This document shows positions 5,809-14,907 of a DNA stretch of 64,000 nt, piece by piece. The stretch comes from Phorcysia thermohydrogeniphila (GTDB lineage Bacteria; Aquificota; Aquificia; Desulfurobacteriales; Desulfurobacteriaceae), in contig NZ_SMFV01000001.1 of the NCBI RefSeq assembly GCF_004339575.1, positions 301,119 to 365,118 on the forward strand, in the 5' to 3' direction. Every line of letters starts with the position of its first letter. Position 1 is the stretch's first letter. The position numbers and the translations under genes are program-made. The notes under the pieces were generated by a model. The model was not told the DNA's origin. It searched no databases and saw only the letters and a list, made by a program, of their open reading frames with translations.

Positions 5809-6894
5809 TTACCTCGCCGTACAGGACAGGCACGGGTCAAAACTTATCACAACAGCCGGAACGTCGGCGTACTCCATCCCGACAAAGAGCTCCCTCATAA
5901 CTGGTATGTTAGCAAATGTTGGAACTCTTATCCTGAGCCTTTCAAGAACCATTTTCTTGTTACCCCTCACGTAGTAAAAGAGCTCTCCCCTCGGAGCCTC
6001 AATTCTAACGAAAGATTCACCCTCAGGAAGACCTTTAACGTTCACTTTTATGTCTCCCTCAGGCATACCGTCAAGGACGTTAAAGAGCATTTCTATGGAG
6101 TTAACCGTCTCCTCAGCCCTTACCATGTTCCTCGCGTACACGTCTCCTTCATCCCTTACAACCATACGGTAGCCAACTTCCTTGAAAGGCAGATAGTCAA
6201 ACTCGTTCCTGACGTCAGTTGCAAGGCCAGAAGCCCTTGCAGGAGGTCCTACTACGTTAAGCTCCTTTGCCATCTCCTTAGTTATAACTCCAACTCCTTT
6301 CCAGCGGTACTTGATACTGTAGTCGTTTTCATAGACATCTTTTAGCCAGAGAACTTTCTCTTTTAGTGTTTTGAGCTTTTCACGGAGCTCCTTCTCTACT
6401 TCAGGCGTAAGATCCCTATTTACTCCTCCTATGCAAGCGTAGTCAAACTGGATTCTGTTACCGGTAACGAGTTCTTGGAGCTCCATAACGAGCTCCCTGT
6501 CACGGAAGGTGTGCATAAAGAGGTTCTCATAACCGGCAACCTCAGCAAGGTGTCCCATTGCAAGCAGGTGGGAGTGAATCCTGTCAAGCTCGCTCACCAA
6601 TATTCTCAGGTAGAGAGCTCTCTTTGGAACCTCAATTCCCATGAGCCTTTCAACGGCTGTAACGTAAGCTAAAGTGTGAGAGATAGCACAAAGGCCACAA
6701 ACCCTTGCGACAACGTAGCCAACCTGCATGTACTTAAACTTGGTCATACAGGCCTTCTCTATTCCTCTGTGGACGTAACCAACGTCAACGTCAACATCAA
6801 CAATCTTTTCGTTCTCAGTCTGGAAAACGAACCTTATAGGTTCAGGCAGGGCAACGTGCTGGCTACCAAATGGTATCGTTATCTTCTTCCCCAT
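5809..6894 (-). CDS. Ech-type [NiFe] hydrogenase large subunit (EchE/NuoD-like)
   Basis: Catalytic subunit of a group 4 membrane-bound [NiFe] hydrogenase, homologous to NuoD. Both nickel-binding motifs are intact: L1 RVCGLCAISH (C66, C69) and L2 DPCLSCTAR (C355, C358). The protein ends directly after TAR, so there is no long C-terminal peptide to cleave off, as in Ech/NuoD relatives. At 361 residues the length fits EchE. The gene starts 1 nt after the NuoC-like gene. The nickel ligand here is an ordinary cysteine, unlike the UGA-coded site in hydA of the same operon. Confidence 0.95.
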   Translation of the reverse strand: MGKKITIPFGSQHVALPEPIRFVFQTENEKIVDVDVDVGYVHRGIEKACMTKFKYMQVGYVVARVCGLCAISHTLAYVTAVERLMGIEVPKRALYLRILVSELDRIHSHLLAMGHLAEVAGYENLFMHTFRDRELVMELQELVTGNRIQFDYACIGGVNRDLTPEVEKELREKLKTLKEKVLWLKDVYENDYSIKYRWKGVGVITKEMAKELNVVGPPARASGLATDVRNEFDYLPFKEVGYRMVVRDEGDVYARNMVRAEETVNSIEMLFNVLDGMPEGDIKVNVKGLPEGESFVRIEAPRGELFYYVRGNKKMVLERLRIRVPTFANIPVMRELFVGMEYADVPAVVISFDPCLSCTAR

Positions 6895-6895
6895 C

Positions 6896-7240
6896 TTAAC
6901 CTCTCCTTAAAGGTGCTTGAGGGCTATCTGGTTCAAGGAAGAGACCTTTCTTAGCTCCCTCAACGTTAAGTCCTAAAAGGTCTGCAAGTTCCCACTCGGA
7001 AATCCAAGCAGAAGGAATAATGTAGGTAATTGTTGGAATTTCATCGTCGTAACCTGCCTCAGCGGTAAATACCTTGAAAACCTCTTTCTCGCCGTACTTG
7101 GCAAAGAACCACTTAAGCTCAACCTTACCGCCAAGGTCCGTTCCGTTAACAGTTATAAAGTGCCACTCATCTGGGTTATAGAACTCTTTAATTGCCTTTC
7201 TTACTTCCCTTAAAGGAACTTTTACCTCATCTACCTTCAT
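6896..7240 (-). CDS. Ech-type hydrogenase NuoC-like subunit (EchD)
   Basis: Small hydrophilic subunit homologous to the 30 kDa NuoC protein, part of the cytoplasmic arm. The chosen ATG at 7240 follows GAGGAGGTACC and gives 114 residues; a start at 7264 would add eight residues without a ribosome site. The segment IPSAWISEWELADLLGL near the C-terminus resembles the NuoC region that contacts the large subunit. It overlaps the end of the small-subunit gene by 14 nt. Confidence 0.85.
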   Translation of the reverse strand: MKVDEVKVPLREVRKAIKEFYNPDEWHFITVNGTDLGGKVELKWFFAKYGEKEVFKVFTAEAGYDDEIPTITYIIPSAWISEWELADLLGLNVEGAKKGLFLEPDSPQAPLRRG

Positions 7241-7748
7241 GGTACCTCCTCGTACACTCTGCAAGGAGTTTTCTACGGCTACTTTCTCTCTTTAGTTCCT
7301 TGCATCTGTGTGGCAACTCCATATCCTTCTTCTTTTTCTCAAGAATCTCAAGGGCTTTAACAACGCCGTCTATAATGCTCTCCGGCCTTGCTGCACAGCC
7401 GGGAACGTAGACGTCAACAGGAATGAAGTTGTTCACTCCGTTACCTACGTTGTACATACCTCTGAAAACCCCTCCGCTACAGGCACAAGCACCAATGGCC
7501 ACAACGACCTTGGGCTCTGGCATCTCCATGTAAAGCCTGATAAGCCTGTCCCTCGTCCTTTTCGTAACGGGGCCTGTCACTAAGAGAATGTCGGACTGCT
7601 TGGGATTTCCACGATTTAAGATTCCAAACCTCTCAAGGTCGTACTTTGGCCCGAGGCACGCCAAAATCTCTACATCACATCCGTTACAGCTACCTGTGTT
7701 GTAGTGAAGTATCCACGGTGATTTCTTCCTAAATCCGTTCAGTTTCAT
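7227..7748 (-). CDS. Ech-type hydrogenase small subunit (EchC/NuoB-like)
   Basis: Small subunit carrying the proximal [4Fe-4S] cluster. Cluster cysteines are visible at C21 and C24 (GSCNGCDVEIL), in GACACSGG (C88/C90) and at C118 (VPGCAARPESIIDG). The 173-residue length fits the short NuoB-like group 4 type, without the extra clusters of group 1 enzymes. The ATG directly abuts the stop of the NuoH-like gene. The C-terminal tail is basic and rich in Glu/Lys/Arg. Confidence 0.93.
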   Translation of the reverse strand: MKLNGFRKKSPWILHYNTGSCNGCDVEILACLGPKYDLERFGILNRGNPKQSDILLVTGPVTKRTRDRLIRLYMEMPEPKVVVAIGACACSGGVFRGMYNVGNGVNNFIPVDVYVPGCAARPESIIDGVVKALEILEKKKKDMELPHRCKELKRESSRRKLLAECTRRYHEGR

Positions 7749-8591
7749 TTACGCCCTCCAGAGTGCAAGTAGCATAAGGTTTATTACAACGAGAGGTACA
7801 AGAACGTACCAGTGGAAAGCTATCATCTGACGGAAGGTGAACCTTGCAGTTGCGTTGTCTACGAGGTTGACGAAGAAGAAGGCAAAAACTGTTAGGAGAG
7901 CTCCAAGCAGGTAGTTACCACCTGCAAAGAGGAAGACGAAGAAGAAAGCGTAAACGTACTCAATCCACTTAGCCGTGTAAACGGCCTCGTAGAACTTACC
8001 GGAGTACTCAATCTCCGGTCCACCAATAATCTCCTGATGGGCCTCCGCAATGTCAAATGGGGATTTTTTAAGAACCGCCGGAAGCGTAAGGAGAAAAGCT
8101 ATAAAAACAAGTGGCAGTGAGAAAATAGGAACAGCGTCAGACTTGAGAATCTCTGAAATCTGGAAGGTTCCAGTTACGAGGTAAAGGCCGGCCGCTGCCA
8201 TTACGAAGACCGGCTCGTAAGCAACCATGTGTAAGAGCTCCCTCATTGCCCCGACAACTGAGTAGGGAGAACGAACGCTGAAACCGCCAATTACCAAGAA
8301 GGCAAGTGAGAGAACGTGGAAGAAGATAGCTATCAGGATGTCACCACCTGAGAGGAGAACGTAGAGGGAAAACCACGTTCCCACTAAGTACATAATTCCC
8401 ATAAAGGCGTGGAAAGAGTGAACAATAATGGAGCGCTTGTCCATAAGCTTAAGGAAGTCGTAGAAGGGCTGTAGCAGAGGAGGCCCCTGACGGTTCTGCA
8501 TCCTTGCCCTTACTACCCTCTCAAGACCGTAGATAAGACCTCCAATCACCGGAGCCAAGATGGTCAGGATGATTGCCAGCGTTCCGCTCAT
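7749..8591 (-). CDS. Ech-type hydrogenase membrane subunit (EchB/NuoH-like)
   Basis: Integral membrane subunit joining the catalytic arm to the antiporter-like subunit. The conserved NuoH/EchB loop SPFDIAEAHQEIIGG is followed by EIEYSGKFYEAVYTAKWIEY, with about eight hydrophobic segments and the N-terminal R-x-Q-N-R-Q-G-PP element (ARMQNRQGPPLLQP). Length 280. The start overlaps the EchA-like stop by 4 nt (ATGA), so the two are probably translationally coupled. Confidence 0.95.
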   Translation of the reverse strand: MSGTLAIILTILAPVIGGLIYGLERVVRARMQNRQGPPLLQPFYDFLKLMDKRSIIVHSFHAFMGIMYLVGTWFSLYVLLSGGDILIAIFFHVLSLAFLVIGGFSVRSPYSVVGAMRELLHMVAYEPVFVMAAAGLYLVTGTFQISEILKSDAVPIFSLPLVFIAFLLTLPAVLKKSPFDIAEAHQEIIGGPEIEYSGKFYEAVYTAKWIEYVYAFFFVFLFAGGNYLLGALLTVFAFFFVNLVDNATARFTFRQMIAFHWYVLVPLVVINLMLLALWRA

Positions 8592-10447
8592 ACCAGACCT
8601 CCACCAAAAACGAGTGTCATGATGAAGAGGGCAACTGCAGCTGTTTCAATAAACGGTTCTATCTTGGACACGCAGAAGAAGTCGTAAGTTCCAATGGTCA
8701 TTTCTATGTTCTCACCGCAGGTGTACTCGTAAACCCTGTCTGTATTCCTGAAGTGGATGAAGTAAGCAAGGATTGGAACGAGTAGCAGGAGAACGATTGC
8801 GCCAATAATTTGCCAGCCGTAAATCTCAGAGAAAGGCGTGTAGAGGGTAAGGCCAGAAGCTTTAATCTGCGCAGCAGCACCAACTATGTCCTTAACAACC
8901 GGGTTAATGAAGTCCGTTGAAAGACGTGCAATGTAAATTGAGCCGACCATAGTAGCCACAACGTAGAGAGTCGTTGTGAAGAAGTAGATGAAGGGGAGCT
9001 TCTCTAAGCGGAAGTGGGAAAACTCTCCCCTCTTCCTCGCCATTACGCCGATAACCTTAAAGTAGAGGAGCGTTAGAACAACTCCTCCAACTGTAACGAG
9101 AATAATTGAAGCGATATAAGCACCGTGGGAGAGTAAGTTAGAAGCTGTCTCTAAGGTAAGCCATTTCGCTATGAAGATTCCAAAAGGCACTATTGTCATA
9201 CTCATAAAACCAATGGATATAAAGAGAACAGTAATTGGTGCTTTCTCAACAAGCTGTCTCATCTGTTCTACGTACTTAGCGTTAAAGAGCTTCTCCATAA
9301 TTCCCGCTTCAAGGAATAGGAGAGCTTTAACAATCGCGTGGAAGAGTATGAGAAGAAGTGATGCAAGTACGGCGATGGGGCTTCCCATGCTGGCAGTGAG
9401 CATCATAAGCCCAAGGAGAGAAATCGTAGAGTAAGCGAGGATTTTCTTGAAGTTGTCCTGTGTCAGAGCTAAAAGACCTGCTGCTACGAAGACAAAACCG
9501 GTTGTCGTAATGAGGAGCTTTGCAAGCAGTGTTCCTTTAATTACGGGTGAGATTCTCAAGATTAGGTATGGAGCAATCTTAACCATCGTAGCGGAGTGAA
9601 GGATTGCACTAACAGGTGTCGGAGCCACCATAGCTCCAAGGAGCCACCTGTGGAAGGGCATCTGTGCACCTTTAACAAGGGCCGAGATAGCAAGGAAACC
9701 GAGGGGTATCATTGAAAGGGTTTTCTTATCAATCGCCAAGATGTCCGTGAAGTTGTAAACTCCGTGGTGTTTAACGGCAAAGAGAATCGCAAAGAGGATT
9801 GCGATTCCACCTACTTGGTTCATCCAGAGAGCTCTAATGGCATTCCTGATAGAGATATCGTCCCACCTGAACCTAATCAGGATGTAGGAGGCAAGAGTTG
9901 TGGTTTCAAAGAGGGCAAAGAACCACTCAATGTTGTTTACAGAAACTGCAAAGTTCATTACGCCTAAGAACCAAAGGAGTATCGCAACGAACCTGTTTTC
10001 TCTATCAACGTTTTCCTGTTCCATGTACTTAGTGGCATAGATACAGATGATTGAGCCTACAGTCGCAACGATGAGGTACATAAATGCTGATAGCCTGTCA
10101 ACGTAGATTGGAGCCGTGTATGACTCAGGGAGTATCATGAGAGCCCAAGTGAGGAGGAAAACCTGAGCAGCTGCAAGAACCGAAACTAAGAAACTCCTAA
10201 ACTTTATACCCTGATAGAAGAAGTATCCCAAGAGTAAGTAGTCAAAGACGGTTACTGCCGTCTCCACCCAGTGGGGTGTGTGGATGAAAAGTGGGAGCTC
10301 TGCGTTCCAGACCTTGCAGGCAAGGTAGGTGAGAACTGGAAGTGAGAGGAATGTAACAAGCTGTCTTCCCCTGTGGGAAGGAATGAGAAAGACTGCAAGT
10401 GCCATGAGCCACGGCAGGAGAATCAGTCCTCCTATTACCTGCTCCAT
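8588..10447 (-). CDS. Ech-type hydrogenase antiporter-like subunit (EchA/NuoL-like)
   Basis: Proton- or sodium-translocating subunit of the NuoL/M/N and Mrp antiporter family, 619 residues with about 15 membrane segments. Key elements are the glutamate in ALFETTTLASYILIRF, the lysine region LVKGAQMPFHRWLLGAM, APTPVSAILHSATMVKIAPY and LAYSTISLLGLMM. Past the antiporter core, the C-terminus (EYTCGENIEMTIGTYDFF) matches the extended end of EchA-type subunits. It starts 13 nt inside the preceding cNMP-fold gene. The six Ech genes keep the order A-B-C-D-E-F, apart from the inserted cytochrome. Confidence 0.95.
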   Translation of the reverse strand: MEQVIGGLILLPWLMALAVFLIPSHRGRQLVTFLSLPVLTYLACKVWNAELPLFIHTPHWVETAVTVFDYLLLGYFFYQGIKFRSFLVSVLAAAQVFLLTWALMILPESYTAPIYVDRLSAFMYLIVATVGSIICIYATKYMEQENVDRENRFVAILLWFLGVMNFAVSVNNIEWFFALFETTTLASYILIRFRWDDISIRNAIRALWMNQVGGIAILFAILFAVKHHGVYNFTDILAIDKKTLSMIPLGFLAISALVKGAQMPFHRWLLGAMVAPTPVSAILHSATMVKIAPYLILRISPVIKGTLLAKLLITTTGFVFVAAGLLALTQDNFKKILAYSTISLLGLMMLTASMGSPIAVLASLLLILFHAIVKALLFLEAGIMEKLFNAKYVEQMRQLVEKAPITVLFISIGFMSMTIVPFGIFIAKWLTLETASNLLSHGAYIASIILVTVGGVVLTLLYFKVIGVMARKRGEFSHFRLEKLPFIYFFTTTLYVVATMVGSIYIARLSTDFINPVVKDIVGAAAQIKASGLTLYTPFSEIYGWQIIGAIVLLLLVPILAYFIHFRNTDRVYEYTCGENIEMTIGTYDFFCVSKIEPFIETAAVALFIMTLVFGGGLV

Positions 10448-10920
10448 TGCCTACCTCCTGTTGTATTGAAGAAGCCACAGATTTCGGCGTATCGTCTGTC
10501 TTCTTCTTTCAACCTTGTAGAAAGAACCGCGACAACCGCCTCAAGGAGCTTAACGGCCAAAGCTGGCTCTTCACTTTTAAGCCGTAAAAAACTTTCCCTG
10601 TCTATTTTTAGAGCTCTGACGTCCCTTTCCGCTACGGCCTTAAGGGAATGGGTACAGCCAAGGAGAAAGGCACACTCCCCGAGGGGCGTTCCCCCGTAAA
10701 CAACGGCTATCTTGTTCCACCTGCCAAAGTTGTCGCTCCTAAAAAGGGCAACTCTTCCCTCTCTCAAGAAGTAAAAGAAATCGGCGGGGTCTCCTTCGTC
10801 AAAGAGGAGACAGCCTTTCTCAAAACTAACATCCTCAAGGACTTGAGAAAGAACTTCCTTTTCCTCAGGCGAAAAGGAACTAAACAGCTTACACTCTTCA
10901 ACAAGTGAACTCTTTACCAT
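10435..10920 (-). CDS. Stand-alone cyclic-nucleotide-binding-fold protein
   Basis: 161-residue protein made almost entirely of a Crp/Fnr-type double-stranded beta-helix: LFSSFSPEEKEVLSQVL, then GCLLFDEGDPADFFYFLREGRVALF, then a GGTPLGECAFLLGC stretch at the place of the phosphate-binding cassette. No C-terminal helix-turn-helix is present, so it is unlikely to bind DNA by itself. The cassette lacks the classical Arg pair of cAMP sensors, so ligand binding is uncertain. It starts 2 nt after the true hydA stop, using the last hydA codons (AGGAGA) as ribosome site, and overlaps echA by 13 nt. An accessory or regulatory role for the hydrogenases is inferred from position. Confidence 0.85.
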   Translation of the reverse strand: MVKSSLVEECKLFSSFSPEEKEVLSQVLEDVSFEKGCLLFDEGDPADFFYFLREGRVALFRSDNFGRWNKIAVVYGGTPLGECAFLLGCTHSLKAVAERDVRALKIDRESFLRLKSEEPALAVKLLEAVVAVLSTRLKEEDRRYAEICGFFNTTGGRQWSR

Positions 10921-10922
10921 TC

Positions 10923-12227
10923 CTATCTCCTAACCACCTTTACTAACGGTGTTTCTCCACCAAACTGGTGGACCGCACAGGCAATTCAGGGGTCGTAGGC
11001 CCTTATAAGCATTTCAGCTCGCTTTTTGAGCTCTTCGTCAGAGGCTTCTTTAGACCTTTCAACAAGGGATTTAAGGTCTCTCTCTATAACGGCCTGAAGC
11101 TGAGCAGTTGGGGTAATGATGTTAGCTGAGACACACCTTCCGGTATCGTCAAAAGAGTAACGGTGGTAGAGTGTTCCCCGGGGCGCCTCTTTAACGCCAA
11201 AGCCCGTTCCTTTTTTGGGAGCTACGGGGACTTCACCTTTAAAGGGAGATGCGTTTATCAGTACCTCTGTTATCTCAATTCCCCTAAGGGCAAACTCTAA
11301 GATTTCTATGGCCCTTGCAAGGTTGGCATGGAGGGAATTTGAAGATGGGAAGCTGTTTTTAAGGAGGAAAAGCTGTTTTTTTGTTCCTTCTAAAAGTCTA
11401 TCAGCGTAATGGTTTACCCTCGCAAGAGGACCTATGAGGAAAGGTTTCTCCTTTATAGTTGAGCACTTGGCAGTGCTGTAGTCGGAAACTTTTTCCTCTA
11501 CGAAGAGCTCGTACTCCTGCTTAGTAAAGACCGTCCCGTCAGAGAGGGTTACTTTATCGCCGAAAGAGAGCGGGTCGTCAGCCTCTACACACATCTGGAG
11601 CTCGTGGGGGTCGTTGAACTCAGGATAGTCAAGGGAATCAAAAAGGGATATCGTTGCCTTTATTTCTGGAAGAACACGGTGGAGGTCCTCCTGAACTTTT
11701 TTAAGGTCGTCAACAGATGGAACTGACTTGAAGCCTCCGGGCAAGATGTTCTCGCCGTGAACTGTCTTACCACCTATGAGCTTCATTATCCTGTTGCCGA
11801 CTTCCTTGATAAAGAAGCCCCGTCTAACTATGTTGGGGTAGTCCTTAGCCATAGCGATGGCCGACGGGTAGCCCATGTAATCGGGAAGTGCAAGGAAGTA
11901 GAGGTGAAGGGCGTGACTTTCAAGGTATTCACCTACGACGAGGAGTTTCCTGAGGAGCTCTATCTCCGGTGTTACCTTAACCCCAAAGGCATCCTCAACG
12001 GCAAGGCTTGAGGCAAGCCTGTGAGAAACGTAACAGATACCGCAGATACGGGAAACTATCTTTGGAATTTCGCTGTAGAGCCTTTCTCTCGTTATAAATT
12101 CAAAGAAACGGGGTCCTTCGGTGAAACGGAGCTTTATCTCCTTTAACATTTCATTTTCAATAACTATGTTTACAGCTCCGTGTCCCTCAACTCTCGTTAA
12201 GTGGTTTATATTAAGCTCCCTTTTCAT
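10923..12227 (-). CDS. hydA: Group 3 [NiFeSe] hydrogenase large subunit with in-frame UGA (selenocysteine)
   Basis: Catalytic alpha subunit of a soluble group 3 (HydBGDA, sulfhydrogenase-like) hydrogenase. The N-terminal L1 motif RICGICYVSHR (C62, C65) is intact. The frame meets TGA at 10986-10988 exactly after AYDP, where the L2 nickel ligand belongs. Reading on in the same frame gives U-I-A-C-A-V-H and 14 more residues to a TAG at 10923-10925. Sec414, Cys417 and His420 then form D-P-U-x-x-C-x-x-H, and the tail QFGGETPLVKVVRR would be the maturation peptide removed after His420. Total 434 residues, the normal size of the family. A hairpin fitting a bacterial SECIS follows the UGA. The gene overlaps hydD by 17 nt. 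A gene caller would end it at 10986 and lose the second pair of nickel ligands. Confidence 0.92.
10945..10988 (-). promoter_or_regulatory. SECIS-like hairpin after the UGA in hydA
   Basis: Counting from U of UGA as 1, the mRNA has G15 G16 U17, then the stem C18-C22 (CCACC) pairing with G28-G32 (GGUGG), and the loop A-G-U-U-U at 23-27. A lower stem CGGU/ACCG can form around it. E. coli fdhF has its bulged U at 17 and the loop GU at 23-24, so the register is nearly identical. The element lies inside the coding region, as expected for SelB-dependent readthrough in bacteria. No folding program was run. Confidence 0.72.
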
Positions 12228-12990
12228 TTTCTACTACCCCTTCTGAAAGCTTGATTTCCTTAGACTGGTAGCCCCTAAAGACCTTCAGGAACTTCACAGC
12301 ATCTCCAGTTGAAAGGCCGTTTTTCTTGAGAATCTCCACCATCTCCTCAAAGTTGGGGAAGTCACAGTTACCTCTACAACCCTGACAGCCAACCCCTGAA
12401 GCTGTGCAGGGAGCTCCACATCCGGCAAACGTAACTGGCCCCTGACAGGGAATACCCTTTAGTGTTAGGCACTCAGTCTCGGAGAGCTTACACTCGTGGC
12501 AAACCGGAATCTTCGGGAAGAAGGGTTTCACGCCGTTAAGAATGGAGGCAACTGCGTAAACAAACTGCCTCTTGTCAAGGGGACACCCGGGGAGCTCGTA
12601 GTCCACCTTTACAACTTCCGAAACTGCACGGGGTTTTTGAACCTTTACGGGGAGCTCCTTCCTGCCGTAAACTGCAAGGAGCATCTCTTCTAAGGAAGCC
12701 TCGTCGTTCCTCTGGGACTGAACTCCCCCGTAACAGGCACAGCTTCCAACAGCCACGAGAAACTTAGCCCTCTCCCTCCCCTCTTTAACCTTCCTCTCGT
12801 CCTCCTCTGTAGTAACCGAACCCTCAACAAAGAGAATCTCAAACTCCCCGAAGCTATTGTTGTCCTGAGCAAGGGGGAAGTAGGATATCTCCACCTTCTC
12901 AATAAGGCGGTAAATGGCTTCCTCGCAGTTGAGTATCTCGCACTGACAACCAGAGCACCCGGTAAGTCCCATTATTCCTATCTTCACCAT
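12211..12990 (-). CDS. hydD: Group 3 hydrogenase small subunit
   Basis: Delta-type small subunit carrying [4Fe-4S] clusters that feed the nickel site. N-terminal LTGCSGCQCEILNCEEAI, GSCACYGGVQ and ELPGCPLDKRQFVYAV supply the proximal cluster cysteines. The C-terminal half has further Cys groups (CHECKLSETEC, CQGPVTFAGCGAPCTASGVGCQGCRGNC) for medial and distal clusters, as in P. furiosus HydD and HoxY/Vhu relatives. 259 residues. It overlaps the hydG stop by 1 nt (TGATG) and hydA by 17 nt. Confidence 0.94.
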   Translation of the reverse strand: MVKIGIMGLTGCSGCQCEILNCEEAIYRLIEKVEISYFPLAQDNNSFGEFEILFVEGSVTTEEDERKVKEGRERAKFLVAVGSCACYGGVQSQRNDEASLEEMLLAVYGRKELPVKVQKPRAVSEVVKVDYELPGCPLDKRQFVYAVASILNGVKPFFPKIPVCHECKLSETECLTLKGIPCQGPVTFAGCGAPCTASGVGCQGCRGNCDFPNFEEMVEILKKNGLSTGDAVKFLKVFRGYQSKEIKLSEGVVENEKGA

Positions 12991-13868
12991 CAGATCATCT
13001 CCGGAAGGTTTTTGGTATCCCAGAGCGGAAAGATTGGTCCGTCAACGCAGGCATACTTGTAGCCTATCTGACAGTGGCCACATTTACCGATTCCACACTC
13101 CATCTTCCTCTCAAGAGAAACGAAAACTTGACTTTCCGGGTAGCCGTTTTTTAGGAGCTCCTTACCTATGAACCTGTAGGCAACTGGAGGACCGCATACG
13201 GCAACGTAAGTTTCCGTAGGGTCAAGGTCTACTTCGGGAATGAGCTCCGTTAAAAGTCCCTGTCTATCTGTCCACTGCCTATCCTCTTCAGTTTCAATCC
13301 TGTCAAGTATGTAGAGACACTTAACGTCATCCCTTTCACGGAGTCTCTTGAGCTCCTCCTTGTAGAGGACGCTCTCGTAGTTCCTCGTTCCGTAGAGGAC
13401 GTAAACCTCCTTGTAGAGGTGGCGACGGTCAAGGATGTACCAGATGAGGGAACGTAGAGGAGCTATTCCCAAACCGCCTGCAATTATTAGGACGTTGTGT
13501 CCCTCCATTATCTCCACGGGGAAGCCGTTACCGTAAGGTCCCCTTATCGCAACAAGGTCTCCCGGCTTAAGCCTGTGGAGAACCTCCGTCTTCCTTCCAA
13601 CTTTCCTAACGGTCAGTTCAATCGTTCCCCTCCTTGTAGGGGAGGAGCAGATAGAAATGGGAATTTCACCCGCCTTTGGAACTGTTATCATTACGAACTG
13701 GCCCGGTATGTGATTCCAAGAACTGTTAAGCTTCTCATCCAAGAAGGTGAAGGAAAACTTTTTGTGGTCCGGAGCCAGCTCCTCAACATCCGTTATGAGA
13801 GCTTTATGAGGCAGTAGCGGGTCACCCGGTAGTGGTTTGTTCAGGAGCTTCTCTAAGCTCTTCTTCAT
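12990..13868 (-). CDS. hydG: Group 3 hydrogenase FAD/NAD(P)-binding gamma subunit
   Basis: Diaphorase-like subunit that passes electrons between NAD(P)H and the iron-sulfur chain. The ferredoxin-reductase fold shows a flavin-binding region (GQFVMITVP, ISICSSPTRRGTIELTVRKVGRKTEVL), a nucleotide-binding region (LIIAGGLGIAPLRSLIWYI, YGTRNYESVLYKEEL, VAVCGPPVAYRF) and a C-terminal [2Fe-2S] site (CGIGKCGHCQIGYKYAC). 292 residues, as in HydG/SudA relatives. NAD versus NADP preference cannot be decided by eye. It overlaps hydB by 47 nt. Confidence 0.94.
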   Translation of the reverse strand: MKKSLEKLLNKPLPGDPLLPHKALITDVEELAPDHKKFSFTFLDEKLNSSWNHIPGQFVMITVPKAGEIPISICSSPTRRGTIELTVRKVGRKTEVLHRLKPGDLVAIRGPYGNGFPVEIMEGHNVLIIAGGLGIAPLRSLIWYILDRRHLYKEVYVLYGTRNYESVLYKEELKRLRERDDVKCLYILDRIETEEDRQWTDRQGLLTELIPEVDLDPTETYVAVCGPPVAYRFIGKELLKNGYPESQVFVSLERKMECGIGKCGHCQIGYKYACVDGPIFPLWDTKNLPEMI

Positions 13869-14907
13869 CTGCTGTTCCTCTCAGTTTCTTTATTGTTTCA
13901 ACCATGCTTATCTTGGCGGGACACTCAGCACTACACCTACCACAACCAACACACCCAAGCTTTTCTATTTGGTAGAGGTATCCAACAAGCTTGTGGTAGT
14001 AGCGGTGCTTGAATCTATCTGCCCTCGTTGGCTTGAAGTAGTGACCTCCCGCTACAAGGGAGTAATAGGGATACTGGCAAGAGGTTGTGAATTCAACTCT
14101 CGCAACCTTTCTGCCGTCTAAGTCTGGTATATCAACGCACGTGTAACAGAAGCAGGTTGGACAGACGTTCGTGCAGGTTCCGCAGCCAAGACACCTTTTG
14201 GCTTCTTCTTCCCAGACAGGAGAGTCGTACTCCAGCTCAATAACTTGAGAGATTCTTCCAAAGTCTGGAAGCTTCTCTATTTCAAAGAGAGCTTTCTTAA
14301 AGGAAGTGCTCTTCTTATACCTATCAAGGTCTTCTTTAGTTATTTCCCTAAATATTTTCCGGAGCTTGAGGATAATTTCGTCTCCCTTAGGACTTCCAAT
14401 GCTGACAAAGTAGTCGTCTCCTATATCCGTCAGGAAGAGGTCCCAGTTTGCACCATCTGGGAAAGCAGTCCCCGTTGAGAGGCAGAAACAGTACTCGTCT
14501 GGACGGCAAGAAATTCCAATTAAAACCGTTTTCTTCCTAACTTCAAGGTACCTCGGGTCTGGATTGTCCCTAAGGTAAACGGAGTCAAGAATTGAAATTC
14601 CGTGAAGGTCACAGGAGTGGATACCGAAAATAATCTGCTCCACTGGACGGAAGCTGCTCTTAAACTCTAAGGTATCCGTGCTGTACGTATACCTCTCCCT
14701 TCTGTAAGGAAGGAGGAACTTTTTAGGCGGTAGAATAGTCCTCGTGTAGTTGATTTCTACGTCCAAAACGTCTCTTATCACGTCAAAGACAAACTTTTCA
14801 CCCTTGCGAACGGGAGCTATTAACCTTCCCAGCTTCTTAAGACCTTCCAAGAACTTTTCCAAGTTCTCCTTCGGGAGAACTTTCGCCTTGTCTATGTGAA
14901 ACTCCAA
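13822..14907 (-). CDS. hydB: Group 3 hydrogenase iron-sulfur beta subunit
   Basis: Beta subunit with two ferredoxin-like [4Fe-4S] sites linking HydG to HydD. Motifs are CLGCGTCTNVCPTCFCYTC near residue 239 and CVGCGRCSAECPAKIS near residue 325. The N-terminal ~200 residues are the HydB-specific part (IFGIHSCDLHGISILD). 361 residues. The start is TTG at 14907 with GGAGGATT 8 nt upstream. It is the first gene of the hydrogenase operon, downstream of a good sigma70-like promoter. Confidence 0.93.
   Translation of the reverse strand: MEFHIDKAKVLPKENLEKFLEGLKKLGRLIAPVRKGEKFVFDVIRDVLDVEINYTRTILPPKKFLLPYRRERYTYSTDTLEFKSSFRPVEQIIFGIHSCDLHGISILDSVYLRDNPDPRYLEVRKKTVLIGISCRPDEYCFCLSTGTAFPDGANWDLFLTDIGDDYFVSIGSPKGDEIILKLRKIFREITKEDLDRYKKSTSFKKALFEIEKLPDFGRISQVIELEYDSPVWEEEAKRCLGCGTCTNVCPTCFCYTCVDIPDLDGRKVARVEFTTSCQYPYYSLVAGGHYFKPTRADRFKHRYYHKLVGYLYQIEKLGCVGCGRCSAECPAKISMVETIKKLRGTADEEELREAPEQTTTG

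Follow-up and report, generated by a model that had tools for sequence, protein, structure and literature searches.

The hydA gene in the window (the whole 64,000-nucleotide stretch of Phorcysia thermohydrogeniphila DNA analysed here) is very probably a selenoprotein gene, in which UGA codon 414 is decoded as selenocysteine (Sec) to give the large subunit of a group 3b-type [NiFeSe] hydrogenase. Judged from its sequence, the enzyme looks like the first [NiFeSe] hydrogenase of group 3b.

Reading frame and nickel ligands of HydA

The hydA gene (10923..12227, minus strand), predicted to encode the catalytic large subunit, runs from ATG at 12227 through 413 codons to TGA at 10988-10986 and through 20 more codons to TAG at 10925-10923, which gives 434 codons including Sec414. 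An earlier note on this DNA had placed the TGA (10986..10988, minus strand) where the nickel-ligand cysteine of the L2 motif belongs, and its coordinates are exact. The readthrough product that it described was also reproduced, with all counts correct: DPUIACAVH followed by a tail of 14 residues past VH, QFGGETPLVKVVRR (10926..10967, minus strand), and the TAG that ends at 10923.

With the TGA read as Cys, a phmmer search aligned HydA with sulfhydrogenase I of Pyrococcus furiosus (9nez) with an E value of 3e-84, through AYDP-C-I-x-C-x-VH, in agreement with the placement at L2; reading the TGA as Cys raised the score from 268 to 286 bits. As the alignment runs through L2, codon 414 would be the first L2 nickel ligand and C417 the second. 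The L1 motif C62-G-I-C65 (12033..12044, minus strand, in the context SRICGIC) is predicted to hold the other two, so that C62, C65, Sec414 and C417 would together ligate the Ni-Fe site. The UxxC of HydA, with a UGA codon at the first L2 nickel-ligand position, is the arrangement that marks a [NiFeSe] hydrogenase.

The hyd operon and its neighbors

hydA forms one operon with hydD, the small iron-sulfur subunit of the Oxidored_q6 family (12211..12990), hydG, a FAD/NAD(P)-binding subunit with FAD- and NAD-binding domains (12990..13868), and hydB, an iron-sulfur subunit (13822..14907), all on the minus strand. The latter three frames are open, and the genes are thus intact, as the earlier note had it. 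These partner genes are those of a group 3b enzyme, and the large subunit, with its L1 and L2 CxxC motifs (one Cys replaced by Sec), is closest to HydA/ShyA. The proposal of a group 3 [NiFeSe] hydrogenase is thus supported by sequence and can be narrowed to the group 3b type (HydBGDA), a subgroup without a listed [NiFeSe] variant. HydA stays below the NCBIfam equivalog cut-offs, with scores of 339 against 700 for ShyA and 299 against 880 for HydA, and the family therefore does not fix the exact cofactor and function. By these scores the window HydA is clearly homologous to the Pyrococcus enzymes, yet it is not their equivalog.

A gene for a cyclic-nucleotide-binding-domain protein (10435..10920, minus strand) starts 2 nt behind the hydA TAG. 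Such a gene follows hydA at 11 of the 18 loci; its start overlaps the stop after the readthrough tail in several genomes (TAATG, TGATG). A neighbor start at or over the end of the tail is as expected if the tail is translated, and the gene is possibly translationally coupled to hydA. A cluster for a group 4 (Ech-type) hydrogenase adjoins the operon (window 5809-10447), and the large subunit encoded there carries Cys (DPCLSC) and lacks a tail.

The 14-residue extension of HydA would presumably be cleaved off by a HycI-type protease after nickel insertion. One HycI-type maturation protease scored above cut-off in the genome (G000:C1:389888-390262), near a group 1 hydrogenase; the genome has several hydrogenase large subunits.

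Conservation of codon 414

A full-length HydA was found in 18 of the 22 genomes of the family. Codon 414 is TGA in 14 of these 18, which represent six genera (g1-g6), and TGT or TGC in the remaining four, all from one genus (g7); the comparison of homologues at residue 414 that the earlier note had proposed thus gave either Cys or TGA. The sequence beyond codon 414 is homologous in 18/18, reading IACAVHQFGG... where codon 414 is TGA and ISCSVHMF... where it encodes Cys, and the readthrough tail is homologous to that of the four Cys orthologues from g7. Most HydA tails in the family end in V-x-R or x-x-R. A search with the site pattern matched 14 of 136 Aquificota genomes, all of one family and each time at the hydA TGA, with no matches in the control. 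A single contig scan for relatives, the extent of the search beyond Aquificota, gave matches in four Desulfurobacteriaceae, including a Thermovibrio MAG, and in one remote relative. A sequencing error, chance or a pseudogene was considered as the source of the TGA and rejected because it is conserved in 14 genomes; a correction to TGC or TGT, which the earlier note had named as a possible refutation, does not apply for the same reason.

A SECIS-like hairpin behind the TGA

A bacterial SECIS element is a stem-loop that directly follows the UGA and carries a guanosine in its small apical loop (PMC1088965). A hairpin of this form, TCCACC-AGTTT-GGTGGA (10956..10972, minus strand), begins 13 nt after the hydA TGA and has a G in its apical loop. 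All 14 Sec genes form this fold in the same position, and in the Cys genes the fold is absent. Across the Sec genes the hairpin reads TCCACC-AGTTY-GGTGGA; its apical loop lies some 19-20 nt past the UGA and has the G at its start. In G009 the basal pair is lost. In this genome, the TGA codons of SelD and of a peroxiredoxin are also followed by hairpins, at a comparable distance.

This hairpin, and the synonymous constraint that accompanies it, go beyond what the earlier note had examined. At residue-invariant sites, the pairwise codon difference among the 14 Sec genes falls from 0.52 upstream to 0.11 at codons +5 to +11, and the lowest of 164 seven-site windows is the one directly behind the TGA. 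In the four Cys genes the difference does not fall behind codon 414 (0.47 upstream, 0.49 downstream). The rare valine codon GTC, about a tenth of the Val codons in these genes, is present there in 14/14 Sec genes. The stem is almost invariant in the 14 sequences, and support for pairing comes from frozen synonymous sites, not from compensatory changes. Against synonymous recodings the hairpin is as a rule more stable than 90-99% (83% for one sequence), with 0.8% to 17% of recodings as stable; in single sequences its advantage in stability is only moderate. An Rfam search at the hairpin gave no match; to our knowledge, Rfam has no general family for bacterial SECIS elements. We propose that the hairpin is a bacterial SECIS-like element and a candidate recruiter of SelB.

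Selenocysteine machinery and probable decoding of the UGA

A tRNA-Sec in Desulfurobacteriaceae has already been published (PMC4227106). The genome of this stretch (1.62 Mb, 99.4% complete) encodes the whole Sec machinery that the earlier note had named for a check, selA, selB, selC and selD: a tRNA-Sec with anticodon UCA (84 bits), SelA (E 3e-168), SelB (E 4e-129) and SelD (E 6e-114). SelD has an in-frame TGA itself (SGUGAKL, G000:C3:171402-172328). ARAGORN found 42 tRNAs in nearly the whole genome, of which only tRNA-Sec reads UGA; Trp is served by CCA only, and neither a Trp-UCA nor a suppressor tRNA was among the 42. The suggestion that the hydA stop is probably a Sec codon thus agrees with the machinery, the conservation in 14 genomes and the SECIS-like hairpin.

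During translation, UGA codon 414 would be decoded by a tRNA-Sec delivered by SelB, and SelB would be recruited by the hairpin 14-30 nt behind the UGA. The finished HydA would hold the Ni-Fe site with Sec in place of the first L2 cysteine, its C-terminal tail would be cut by a maturation protease, and the subunit would then join HydD, HydG and HydB to form a group 3b-type (sulfhydrogenase) enzyme that is cytosolic and linked to NAD(P)(H). We infer Sec insertion, nickel ligation, tail cleavage and NAD(P) coupling from sequence, and a faster or more oxygen-tolerant enzyme would be of the same standing.

The standard code closes the hydA frame at the TGA, and an annotation program would do the same. 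If this were a true stop, HydA would be a truncated or dead subunit without two of its four nickel ligands. Against this, 14 genomes from six genera retain the TGA with both flanks conserved, the readthrough tail matches that of the Cys orthologues, and nowhere in the gene is synonymous change more constrained than behind the TGA. We regard termination as the sole fate of this codon as very improbable. Readthrough with an ordinary amino acid, by near-cognate suppression or a change of code, has a general precedent, as readthrough of UGA by tRNA-Trp is known. It is no more credible here and just as improbable: the Sec machinery is complete, including SelB, nearly the whole genome gave no Trp-UCA or suppressor tRNA, three of the hydA genes compared use TGA as their own terminal stop, and the hairpin sits at SECIS distance. 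An ordinary residue would also be unfit at site 414, which requires a metal-binding thiol or selenol.

Sec might also be inserted chiefly for regulation, with termination at low selenium leaving the cell without this hydrogenase and affecting the downstream gene through translational coupling. The overlap of the tail's stop with the cyclic-nucleotide-binding-domain gene in several genomes fits such a role, as does the selenium-dependent choice of hydrogenase reported for Desulfovibrio vulgaris (PMC10423856); the neighbor gene, however, is present at only 11/18 loci, and we consider a chiefly regulatory role unlikely. It extends the decoding of UGA 414 as Sec and does not contradict it.

Comparison with known hydrogenases

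The closest known system is sulfhydrogenase I/II (Hyd/Shy) of P. furiosus, a group 3b [NiFe] enzyme with the same HydBGDA set, whose large subunit aligns with HydA end to end and is its best PDB match. At the corresponding place the Pyrococcus enzyme reads AYDPCISCSVH, with Cys at the L2 position of the predicted Sec. The window HydA further differs in being bacterial, in its longer tail after VH and in scoring far under the NCBIfam equivalog cut-offs. The Desulfovibrio-type HysA (group 1a) likewise has a Sec nickel ligand in L2 and bacterial Sec decoding, but HysA is a periplasmic respiratory two-subunit enzyme of another group, and the window HydA matches it only in part. The FrhA/FruA and VhuA/VhuU [NiFeSe] enzymes of methanogens (groups 3a and 3c) are cytosolic group 3 hydrogenases with UxxC at L2 (PMC13188914). 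They have an archaeal SECIS in the 3' UTR and F420 or heterodisulfide partners, whereas in the window enzyme the partners are HydB/HydG and the hairpin lies inside the gene, directly behind the UGA.

In HydDB, [NiFeSe] variants appear under groups 1a, 3a and 3c only (PMC5037454), and a 2026 review gives Sec in FrhA, MvhA/VhuA/VhuU and delta subunits and confines [NiFeSe] enzymes to methanogens and sulfate reducers (PMC13188914). HydABCD of Thermovibrio ammonificans (Theam_0484-0487) has been described as a group 3b [NiFe] sulfhydrogenase whose HydA is 'unique to the Desulfurobacteriacea'; the genome paper mentions selenocysteine once, for a tRNA, and its proteome is reported to include hydrogenases apart from Frh (PMC5441870). 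This HydABCD is almost certainly the same enzyme as the Sec-type HydA hydrogenase, and the cultured type strain HB-1 almost certainly carries the hydA TGA. We found no report of Sec in HydA in the open-access literature.

With a group 3b form in H2-oxidizing Aquificota of hydrothermal vents, the use of selenium would reach the NAD(P)-linked hydrogenases, which attract interest for making NADPH and H2 enzymatically. Since a gene caller would end HydA ahead of its active site, such genes may be misannotated.

Other selenoprotein candidates

A peroxiredoxin gene with an in-frame TGA (PADFTFVUPTE) lies at about G000:C2 278852, and the TGA is also present in G012 of genus g7. Formate dehydrogenase was rejected as a Sec client of this genome, because neither of its two Fdh-like genes contains a TGA; among the family genomes searched, only two (G010 and G003) have an in-frame TGA in formate dehydrogenase alpha. 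A genome-wide scan for conserved in-frame TGA codons, in a comparison that covered half of G012, left HydA as the sole convincing case under a strict filter, which also dropped the Sec peroxiredoxin and SelD, so that the result is a partial selenoproteome. The unfiltered scan gave mostly antisense ghost frames.

Origin of the selenocysteine form

In a tree of 30 HydAs, built with the L2 region left out, the Sec forms are one clade (support 96/92) and one state change suffices. The Cys relatives around this clade are from genus g7, a second family (f5) and other Aquificota. The simplest reading would be a single change from Cys to Sec.

SelA and tRNA-Sec are kept in both g7 genomes tested. The peroxiredoxin, as a second Sec enzyme, would explain why the machinery is kept in a genus with a Cys HydA; since g7 retains both the machinery and the TGA peroxiredoxin, its Cys is not due to loss of the Sec trait. 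It is likely that this is the first NAD(P)-linked group 3b hydrogenase found in a selenium form, that Cys gave way to Sec once within Desulfurobacteriaceae, and that one thermophilic family holds a natural pair of Sec and Cys orthologues in which the g7 difference reflects the enzyme. Close Sec and Cys orthologues with the Sec machinery kept in both would offer a clean test of the role of selenium in a hydrogenase.
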